Shown one piece after another: positions 36,379-37,110 of a stretch of 64,000 nucleotides of DNA (positions are counted from its first letter, which is position 1; the number at the start of each line of letters is the position of its first letter). Where the stretch lies: positions 1,784,501-1,848,500 of the forward strand of contig NZ_JACJUO010000001.1 of NCBI RefSeq assembly GCF_014397025.1, given 5' to 3'. Source of the DNA: Ochrobactrum sp. Marseille-Q0166 (GTDB lineage: Bacteria > Pseudomonadota > Alphaproteobacteria > Rhizobiales > Rhizobiaceae). Both the position numbers and the translations under genes were made by a program. The notes below the pieces were generated by a model. The model was not told where the DNA came from and ran no database searches. It worked only from the letters and a program-made list of their open reading frames with translations.

Positions 36379-36429
36379 GTGCAGGACGACCTGCGCCTCT
36401 GTTCGTATAGGGGACGGCCCCATAGAGGA
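36379..36429 (+). ncRNA. guanidine-II (mini-ykkC) riboswitch, first copy
   Basis: Two small hairpins joined by a short linker. P1 is GTGCAGG-ACGA-CCTGCGC (36379-36396) and P2 is GGGG-ACGG-CCCC (36410-36421). Both loops fit the ACGR consensus. An AGAGGAA ribosome site follows immediately (36424-36430), then ATG 36437. In this riboswitch class guanidinium bridges the two loops and frees the ribosome site. The match is by pattern reading. Confidence 0.82.
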
Positions 36430-36436
36430 ATGCTCT

Positions 36437-36694
36437 ATGACGTGGCCTATCGAGAATAATGAGATCAAGCCTATTGTTGAATTAGGCTCGTTTACGGATT
36501 ATCTGATCTCTTTTAAAAATCCAGCGCTATACGATCTGCTTCATTATAGGCTTTTTTTTCGACGGCTTACGCCTGCAGGCGTTCCGACTATTTTGGCGCT
36601 AATCGCCGTTCCAATTGAACGGGTATTCTATATTTCACGTCATGAGAGAGTAAACCAGTGTGTTTACAACGCGAACCTGAATGTCATTGCATGA
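36437..36694 (+). CDS. uncharacterised 85-residue ORF under guanidine riboswitch control
   Basis: Starts at ATG 36437 (MTWPIENNE), seven bases after the AGAGGAA that ends riboswitch 1, and stops at 36694, 36 bases before riboswitch 2. The peptide is partly hydrophobic (TPAGVPTILALIAVPIERVF, about residues 45-64), with basic and aromatic flanks and no motif I recognise. It is not a small-multidrug-resistance protein. It could be a real guanidine-induced gene, a decayed one, or chance sequence after a relocated switch. Position is the only evidence for translation. Confidence 0.4.
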   Translation: MTWPIENNEIKPIVELGSFTDYLISFKNPALYDLLHYRLFFRRLTPAGVPTILALIAVPIERVFYISRHERVNQCVYNANLNVIA

Positions 36695-36730
36695 TGCACT
36701 GCATTCGTCTCACTAAAAATATAAAACCGG

Positions 36731-36783
36731 CGAAAGGACGTCCTTTCGTTACAGCAACAATGGGACGGCCCATATTCAAGGAG
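36731..36783 (+). ncRNA. guanidine-II (mini-ykkC) riboswitch, second copy
   Basis: P1 is CGAAAGG-ACGT-CCTTTCG (36731-36748), P2 is ATGGG-ACGG-CCCAT (36760-36773), then an AAGGAG ribosome site (36778-36783) ten bases before ATG 36793. The P2 loop is perfect ACGG. The P1 loop is ACGT, a deviation from ACGR at the fourth base. The downstream gene is a guanidinium exporter, the classic partner, which makes the call strong. Confidence 0.88.
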
Positions 36784-36792
36784 CACAATAAA

Positions 36793-37110
36793 ATGGCATG
36801 GATTTATCTGGCAATAGCTGGAGGCCTGGAGGTCGTATGGGCCTATTTCATGAAAAAGTCTGAGGGTTTTTCCCTTCTCACACCCAGCATTATCACCATT
36901 ATAACAATGATAGGAAGTTTTGCGTTGCTTTCCTTTGCGATGCGAACCCTTCCTCTAGGTACGGCCTACGCGATATGGACAGGCATTGGTGCAGTGGGAG
37001 CCTTTCTGGTCGGTATCTTCATTCTTGGCGAAGCTGCAAGCTTCTTCCGTATTGCAAGCGTTACACTCATTCTTGCAGGCATTATCGGATTAAAATTATC
37101 ATCTACATAA
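36793..37110 (+). CDS. gdx: guanidinium exporter Gdx (SugE), SMR family
   Basis: 105-residue small-multidrug-resistance-type protein with four helices, acting as an antiparallel dimer exchanging guanidinium for protons. The key glutamate is in AGGLEVVWAYFMK (E13), and LPLGTAYAIWTGIGAVGAF is the Gdx/SugE signature separating this branch from EmrE-type drug pumps. The start is ATG 36793, directly controlled by the riboswitch just upstream; longer in-frame readings run through the riboswitch and are rejected. Confidence 0.95.
   Translation: MAWIYLAIAGGLEVVWAYFMKKSEGFSLLTPSIITIITMIGSFALLSFAMRTLPLGTAYAIWTGIGAVGAFLVGIFILGEAASFFRIASVTLILAGIIGLKLSST

Follow-up and report, generated by a model that had tools for sequence, protein, structure and literature searches.

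Why would two guanidine-II riboswitches stand in tandem, the first of them in front of an open reading frame (ORF) of 85 codons? The locus that raises this question lies in a 64,000-nucleotide (nt) stretch of Ochrobactrum sp. Marseille-Q0166 (contig NZ_JACJUO010000001.1, positions 1,784,501 to 1,848,500 of the forward strand), which we refer to as the window. An initial annotation of the window had described two switches, each with its own gene, and had proposed coordinated or graded control of two proteins. Sequence comparison suggests another answer, namely that the window locus is a decayed cassette with the order guanidine-II switch, atpB2, guanidine-II switch, gdx, in which atpB2 would encode an alternative Fo subunit a of ATP synthase and gdx a putative guanidinium exporter. 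We think it probable, with some room for doubt, that the intact locus is a two-gene guanidine-response cassette, that AtpB2 is a guanidine-induced alternative stator subunit, and that the window holds the decayed form.

The first module (36378..36421, + strand) scored 33.3 bits in a search with the Rfam covariance model RF01068, above the curated gathering score of 32. It consists of two G-C-closed hairpins with stems of 7 and 4 pairs and ACGR loops, P1 at 36379-36396 (loop ACGA) and P2 at 36410-36421 (loop ACGG). The second module (36730..36772, + strand), with P1 at 36731-36748 (loop ACGT) and P2 at 36761-36772 (loop ACGG), matched the same model at 27.8 bits (E 0.0028 in a 1.2-kilobase [kb] search), which misses the gathering score. 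Both modules are built on GG-ACGN-CC hairpin cores. Our own covariance model, R1, built from 27 aptamers, gave 52.0 bits for module 1 and 42.4 bits for module 2, scores that are biased upward because both modules were in its training set; the third-best match in the window reached 16.4. In the 27-aptamer alignment, 93.9% of stem cells were paired and covariation was 0.517 versus 0.138 in shuffles, with both stems involved. A strict two-hairpin pattern occurred twice on the + strand of the window, never on the − strand, and never in 300 first-order Markov windows of equal length, which rules out chance hairpins. The scan with the Rfam model that the initial annotation had proposed as a check, together with R1, thus found the two full paired-hairpin modules in tandem, and both are confirmed as guanidine-II aptamers by sequence and fold, with guanidinium binding predicted.

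The difference between the two P1 loops, which had also been pointed out, is genuine and may, as suggested there, go with a difference in affinity. ACGT departs from the loop consensus ACGR given for guanidine-II in the available part of PMC5486947, so that module 2 does not have ACGR in both loops. Among 85 related modules, collected with a pattern that itself demanded GG and CC flanking the loop, a P1 loop of ACGT was never seen; P1 was ACGA or ACGG in 84 and P2 was ACGA or ACGG in all 85. A relative whose ordinary AtpB is identical to that of the window (L023) has ACGA at the same place in its gdx aptamer, and the ACGT loop therefore looks derived. The gdx aptamers of other relatives fall on either side of the Rfam gathering score, above it in G005, G007, G008, G011, G033, and G034 and below it in G003 and G019. 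Module 2 is a divergent copy of the aptamer, possibly a weakened one.

Each module is followed by a ribosome site and an ORF, as originally laid out. Behind module 2, the Shine-Dalgarno (SD) sequence AAGGAG (36778..36783, + strand) precedes gdx (36793..37110, + strand), whose 105-residue product scored 135.6 bits against the NCBIfam SugE model NF008512 (cut-off, 126) and also matches the Pfam SMR family PF00893. It is the sole gene of the genome above the Pfam SMR cut-off. From these matches, the product is classed as a SugE/Gdx-type SMR transporter and a putative guanidinium exporter, in agreement with the first assignment of the gene. The two modules may lie on one mRNA, as had been proposed, or on two. 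Two promoter-like matches in the region both lie on the − strand, and one weak terminator-like stem lies on the + strand. A long inverted repeat at 37112-37143, between gdx and a convergent MerR-type gene, is terminator-like on the − strand and possibly serves both genes.

The ORF behind module 1 (ORF1; 36437..36694, + strand) is a different matter. Searches with tblastn placed AtpB2 residues 1-35 at 36437-36541 and residues 117-168 at 36488-36640, as overlapping matches in one frame, with 44-54% identity to two AtpB2 proteins of relatives (P0003 and P0006) and a best E of 7e-7 in this small search. By DNA alignment with an intact relative, approximately 36660-36714 resembles the last ~20 codons of atpB2. 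The AtpB2 reference has 249 residues, and the stretch carrying the essential Arg is missing from ORF1, which is accordingly no full-length subunit a; ORF1 has no family match of its own in Pfam or NCBIfam. The clear match to two AtpB2 pieces and the lack of a family match rule out ORF1 as an independent new gene. Elsewhere in the genome, the single AtpB2 match is the ordinary atpB, 60% identical, with neighbors that read as atpE and atpF (a sequence reading without family search) and no aptamer in the 3.7 kb of sequence inspected there. AtpB2 has been lost in the window's lineage, which keeps its switch and, of the pair, only the exporter. The idea that each switch has its own gene therefore stands in so far as an ORF is open 3' of each module, but ORF1 is an 85-codon gene remnant, and the claim of two functional switched genes in the window finds no support. 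It is true that both aptamers are recognizable and that ORF1 retains its SD sequence, start codon, and open frame, as two working switches that set two functional proteins in a coordinated or graded way would require; with no subunit-a core, no family match, and different lesions at the same place in relatives, we find that proposal extremely unlikely.

Sibling genomes show what the locus would have looked like. They carry two RF01068 matches ~820 to 960 nt apart, enclosing a gene for 249 residues. One such product, P0003, which is identical to the copy in the Brucella tritici record L061, scored 369.5 bits against NF004482, F0F1 ATP synthase subunit A (cut-off, 225), and has the essential Arg and the proton-path residues of a subunit a. 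Since relatives share the layout, with its tandem switches, it is no chance feature of a single genome. Within the genus, the AtpB2 frame is intact in 15 of 35 genomes (G004, G005, G007, G008, G009, G010, G012, G018, G019, G020, G026, G028, G032, G033, and G034), broken or shortened in 7 (G000, G001, G002, G006, G011, G015, and G022), and without a match in 13; the window's own remnant was recognized by the locus search. The ordinary-type copy was matched in all 35, in pieces in G001 and G006, two assemblies marked less complete or contaminated. The gdx gene follows intact atpB2 in 14 of the 14 loci examined (G026, the fifteenth intact case, was outside this check) and persists in all 11 loci inspected among the 13 genomes without an AtpB2 match. 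The lesions differ: L023 still has the first third plus a C-terminal piece, L005 and L008 have no more than ~24 residues, and a locus outside the genus (L269) has only AtpB2 residues 209-249, then an aptamer and gdx. These patterns indicate that atpB2 was lost or broken more than once, with the exporter staying in the loci examined.

Is the switch tied to atpB2 beyond this genus? A named-contig scan, complemented by a protein search, yielded 80 atpB loci, 37 of AtpB2 type (L061-L095, L097, and L105) and 43 ordinary, as the best 80 of 590 confirmed stretches and hence no census. The AtpB2-type loci come from Brucella, Pseudochrobactrum, Ensifer/Sinorhizobium, Rhizobium, Shinella, Agrobacterium, Phyllobacterium, Pseudaminobacter, Aminobacter, Mesorhizobium, Aquibium, Mycoplana, Nitratireductor, Kaistia, Afipia, Tardiphaga, Devosia, Reyranella, and unnamed Rhizobiales, the Reyranella locus (L084) showing that AtpB2 exists outside the main families. 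A diagnostic Val (described below) is present in 36 of the 37; the remaining one, L073, has a frameshift and was assigned to its type from sequence identity. With the covariance model (E ≤ 0.004), a guanidine-II module was found within ~310 nt upstream in 35 of the 37 AtpB2-type loci and in none of the 43 ordinary ones. Among 13 ordinary atpB loci of the genus there was only one weak module match (12.1 bits, E 0.48).

A 397-genome sample of the order gave six matches at ≥69% identity to AtpB2. Five of them (G237, G242, G329, G356, and G429) are AtpB2 with Val 179, 69-76% identical from residue 1, and all five have an RF01068 match upstream. The sixth, G302 (the same contig as L096), is a 69% match that proved to be an ordinary copy with Asn and no module; this case and the 0 of 43 loci rule out switch control of ordinary atpB. 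Three of the five AtpB2 loci are followed by gdx, each with a second module, one of them weak (E 0.059 with our own model). Rfam scores were above gathering for the modules of all five loci tested (L065, L081, L092, L105, and L154). The last of these lies on a plasmid of a root-nodule Phyllobacterium, where atpB2 bears the annotation ATP synthase subunit A and is the only atp gene in the 8.7 kb shown. Elsewhere in the class, none of 385 genomes matched at E 1e-97, a search without a known positive and so not evidence of absence. No guanidine-I aptamer was found in the 35 genus genomes. No shared coding gene lies between aptamer and atpB2 in the 12 loci with leaders inspected, nor in L105 (Devosia sp. 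66-22), where a 57-codon membrane-like ORF (5819-5992) sits between the guanidine-II module and atpB2. Taken together, the link between guanidine-II switch and atpB2 is well supported at the level of sequence.

What kind of protein stands behind the switch? As a full-length member of the F1Fo subunit a family (AtpB; NF004482, PF00119), AtpB2 has the essential Arg and the proton-path residues, and it is about 60% identical to ordinary subunit a. Unlike that of ordinary AtpB, its gene stands away from the other atp genes in the loci seen and has a riboswitch in front, and the protein has Val at the place of E. coli aN214. We compared 50 AtpB2 with 56 ordinary sequences. Retained in all 50 AtpB2 are E161, S164, R175, H184, E222, and Q229, equivalent to E. 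coli aE196, aS199, aR210, aE219 (His here), aH245 (Glu here), and aQ252; this mapping used spacing and the top five alignments to subunit-a chains of solved structure (5dn6, 6b2z, 8f29, 5lqx, and 6f36). Position 179, the aN214 place, is Val in 50 of 50 AtpB2 and Asn in 56 of 56 ordinary sequences, a group picked by its RLFAN motif; the five solved chains have Asn there as well. In E. coli terms (aN214/aR210), this position is one helical turn from the essential Arg. Three more positions separate the groups wholly or for the most part: 225 (Met in 50/50 AtpB2, Val in 56/56 ordinary), 228 (Ile in 47/50, Leu in 56/56), and 165 (Tyr in 48/50, Phe in 56/56), the first two adjoining the conserved Gln 229.

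In a tree of 249 columns, a branch with support 100/98 has all 56 ordinary rows on the same side; the bootstrap had not fully settled, and L105 is divergent and its placement unsure. Because the root was not inferred, AtpB2 need not be a clade. Four rows, L073 (frameshifted), L047 and L048 (both broken), and L032 (identical to L061), entered neither the tree nor the estimates of nonsynonymous to synonymous substitution (dN/dS, NG86). In 16 hand-picked AtpB2 pairs, dN/dS was 0.02-0.26 in 15 and 0.36 in a near-identical pair; seven ordinary pairs gave 0.02-0.09. These values point to purifying selection on AtpB2, somewhat looser than on the ordinary copy.

Such conservation bears on the idea that AtpB2 is a spare subunit a captured behind an inducible leader, with guanidine control a by-product of hitch-hiking with gdx. 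The frequent loss of atpB2 in the genus, set beside the retention of gdx wherever the loci without an AtpB2 match were inspected, is what one would expect on that account. Against it stand the purifying selection and the deep split from ordinary copies, the plasmid-borne AtpB2 with its module in Phyllobacterium, and the loci of Ensifer, Shinella, Agrobacterium, Kaistia, and two Phyllobacterium that have their own guanidine-II module and no SMR gene in the stretch inspected. We therefore regard hitch-hiking as quite unlikely.

How might the switch act on atpB2? The available text of PMC12186494 describes guanidine-II as a switch of translation, with initiation promoted by the binding of guanidine. 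Folding of the window and comparison with the atpB2 leaders of relatives suggest a third hairpin, P3 (36421..36439, + strand), as the expression platform. P3 abuts P2, and its 5' arm holds part of the SD sequence (AGAGG, 36424-36428) and its 3' arm the start codon (36437-36439). The counterpart in Brucella tritici L061 is the hairpin CCATAGGA-GGGTG-TCCTATGG after P2. It has two bases in common with P2; the SD sequence lies about its loop, and the start codon falls within the 3' arm. A P3 stem score of ≥20 was reached in 21 of 35 atpB2 leaders, compared to 5.9% of tail shuffles, and P3 overlaps P2 by at least 2 bases in 29 of 35. In the model that these leaders suggest, guanidinium would stabilize the P1-P2 loop-loop contact, P2 would then compete with P3, which overlaps the SD sequence and the start codon, and AtpB2 translation would rise. 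Where leaders are long, 69 to 244 nt separate the hairpin from the downstream atpB2, and some details of the mechanism must be different there.

Why should a cell make a subunit a in response to guanidine? On the reading that we favor, AtpB2 would take the place of the ordinary subunit a, and ATP synthase would thereby be kept working in the presence of guanidinium. With less assurance, we suppose that free guanidinium could hinder the ordinary Fo motor by mimicking, at the a/c interface, the arginine of the stator (E. coli aR210), and that AtpB2 might be less sensitive by virtue of Val for Asn near the Arg and other changes near the proton path. Arginine-mimetic groups of bedaquiline and an amiloride derivative are described as acting at the a/c interface of mycobacterial ATP synthase (in the portion of PMC8873251 available), and a 1963 paper by Pressman in the reference list of PMC5609876 deals, by its title, with guanidine and alkylguanidines and mitochondrial energy transfer, the available citing text concerning complex I. 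In E. coli, replacement of aN214 by Val, Leu, Gln, or Glu is reported to cost proton conductance while growth on succinate is retained (available text of PMC11121307), and glycine or hydrophobic residues are natural at this place in Toxoplasma and Thermus (likewise for PMC8754430). Since such mutants grow and hydrophobic residues occur there naturally, a Val-bearing stator can work, and it is a reasonable idea that the Val would keep guanidinium out of the pocket.

The same E. coli data give rise to the main rival of resistance, namely that AtpB2 is a throttle, a low-conductance, guanidine-induced subunit a that spares the proton gradient for use by Gdx in the proton-coupled export of guanidine. 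In PMC11121307, as far as the text at hand goes, aN214 substitutions lower ATP-coupled proton conductance and Leu at this position breaks the inlet half-channel in simulation. Of 36 AtpB2-type loci scanned for an SMR exporter, 16 have one as a neighbor of atpB2, and three others have ChaA-like antiporter neighbors, as a gradient-sparing role would suggest. The six proton-path residues kept in every AtpB2 are what a working channel would be expected to have, and the continued growth of the aN214 mutants on succinate likewise speaks against a throttle. We consider it unlikely, though the least so among the alternatives.

Several points weigh against a guanidine-induced resistant stator. N214V-type changes lower conductance in E. 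coli (PMC11121307, in part), so AtpB2 could equally throttle. AtpB2 is dispensable, being absent or broken in 20 of the 35 genus genomes. Two of the 37 AtpB2-type loci, L064 and L080, have no upstream module recognizable by the covariance model, and R1 was trained partly on same-genus aptamers, so that the Brucella loci in the 80-locus test are not independent. The ordinary group was defined by a motif that contains the Asn at position 179, so that the Asn count is circular; the aptamer split and the tree, even with this column among its own, test the division less circularly. As for the switch, P3 is individually significant in only 14 of 35 leaders (p > 0.05 in 21), and folding window module 1 with P1 and P2 enforced left SD exposure unchanged (0.33 versus 0.34).

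Other gene contexts of guanidine-II show further ion transporters. L081 (Agrobacterium tumefaciens UMA610, 3771-5846) has four guanidine-II modules in a space of 1.7 kb. One precedes a ChaA-like cation/proton antiporter (PF01699, with a score short of the ChaA equivalog cut-off), another precedes atpB2, a third lies in between, and the fourth, on the − strand, precedes a lone PhaF/MrpF, subunit F of a K+/H+ antiporter (NF004812, 105 bits; cut-off, 93). A ChaA-like ORF also precedes atpB2 in L074, with its own module (31.8 bits), and in L105, split over two frames. Cation antiporter genes among the neighbors are one reason to ask if the upstream aptamers sense another ligand, a substituted guanidine or another cation; shifts of ligand occur within riboswitch classes, a guanidine-IV variant being a reported case (PMC9788692, available part). 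Given the conserved loops (84 of 85 for P1, 85 of 85 for P2) and the Rfam scores above the cut-off in all five loci tested, we hold this to be highly improbable. A census of 114 of the 121 order-wide RF01068 matches (L155-L268; the own genome's and the six at five AtpB2 loci were excluded) was labeled by tblastn on ~1.6-kb stretches, so that the labeled gene is not necessarily the first behind the module. It gave SMR in 58 (one with an AtpB2 tail upstream), DUF1989 in 25, PACE/BTP in 24, and nothing recognized in 7, some of which may be false aptamer matches; three PACE and two DUF1989 examples were checked with Pfam. The 24 of 114 stretches with genes of PACE/BTP, a chlorhexidine efflux family, behind guanidine-II modules form an observation of their own, and a brief text search turned up no paper joining a PACE transporter and a riboswitch among the literature matches listed.

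The cassette resembles known systems in part. Guanidine-II (mini-ykkC, RF01068) before gdx/sugE has, like the window, two short ACGR hairpins, an SMR exporter, and a translational switch; here there is an extra module and an extra gene upstream, which in relatives encodes an ATP synthase subunit. The targets described for guanidine-II are efflux proteins and metabolic enzymes (PMC12186494, available text). In tandem riboswitches, more than one aptamer of one class serves a gene neighborhood (PMC9481103), as in the window; the window and its relatives differ in having two switches before two successive genes and not one leader. For none of the four guanidine classes does the available text of that review give a tandem, apart from the hairpin pair that makes up guanidine-II. 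Degradation operons with guanidine-I and guanidine-II in Klebsiella michiganensis and others likewise have successive genes of a guanidine program behind separate switches, but they hold degradation and import genes and two aptamer classes, with no ATP synthase gene mentioned in the part of PMC12186494 available. A riboswitch before ATP synthase genes has a precedent in Na+-I, which occasionally controls genes of Na+-driven ATP synthase, complexes or components, with another ligand and another aptamer (PMC9971707, in part); the available text of that paper brings up ATP synthase for the Na+-I class alone. By comparison, atpB2 encodes one spare subunit on its own, in addition to an ordinary enzyme that is complete. 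To our knowledge, a lone switch-controlled alternative ATP synthase subunit has not been described.

Replacement subunits under stress control are known from the zinc-free ribosomal proteins under Zur. The likeness is that one paralogous subunit is made under stress to replace its counterpart in a large complex; the complex, the inducer, and the regulator differ, and for AtpB2 the replacement is what our reading would predict. Text searches of the literature found no link between a guanidine riboswitch and ATP synthase or atpB; the primary guanidine-II paper and gene-association supplements were outside the search, which leaves novelty unproven. The terms "ATP synth" and "ATP synthase" did not occur in the available text of PMC12186494, PMC7266159, PMC3766115, and PMC2864571, and an earlier mention of atpB is possible in the gene-association supplement of the last, which was not covered.

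Two other features of the window were also noted. A gene for a YnfA/UPF0060 small membrane protein (34585-34905) has a 13-base overlap with the end of a Wzy-like O-antigen ligase ORF, and an ar35 alphaproteobacterial small RNA (6564-6707; RF02346, 126.8 bits) lies near two tRNA genes.

What, then, would the locus tell us about guanidine itself? More tentatively, and with rather more doubt than belief, we suggest that the main target of guanidine in these bacteria could be the rotary proton motor, through mimicry of the stator arginine of subunit a, and that riboswitches of the Rhizobiales may induce resistant replacement subunits. These would be AtpB2 for ATP synthase and, for the K+/H+ antiporter complex, a lone PhaF in one Agrobacterium or more, adjacent to a ChaA-like antiporter, each with guanidine-II aptamers in front. 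If true, this would amount to a stress response of a new kind, in which a metabolite triggers the exchange of subunits in ion-translocating complexes. A conserved guanidine switch before a spare ATP synthase subunit, together with a residue changed next to the arginine to which guanidinium is similar, would offer a concrete, testable candidate for the target of guanidine harm.
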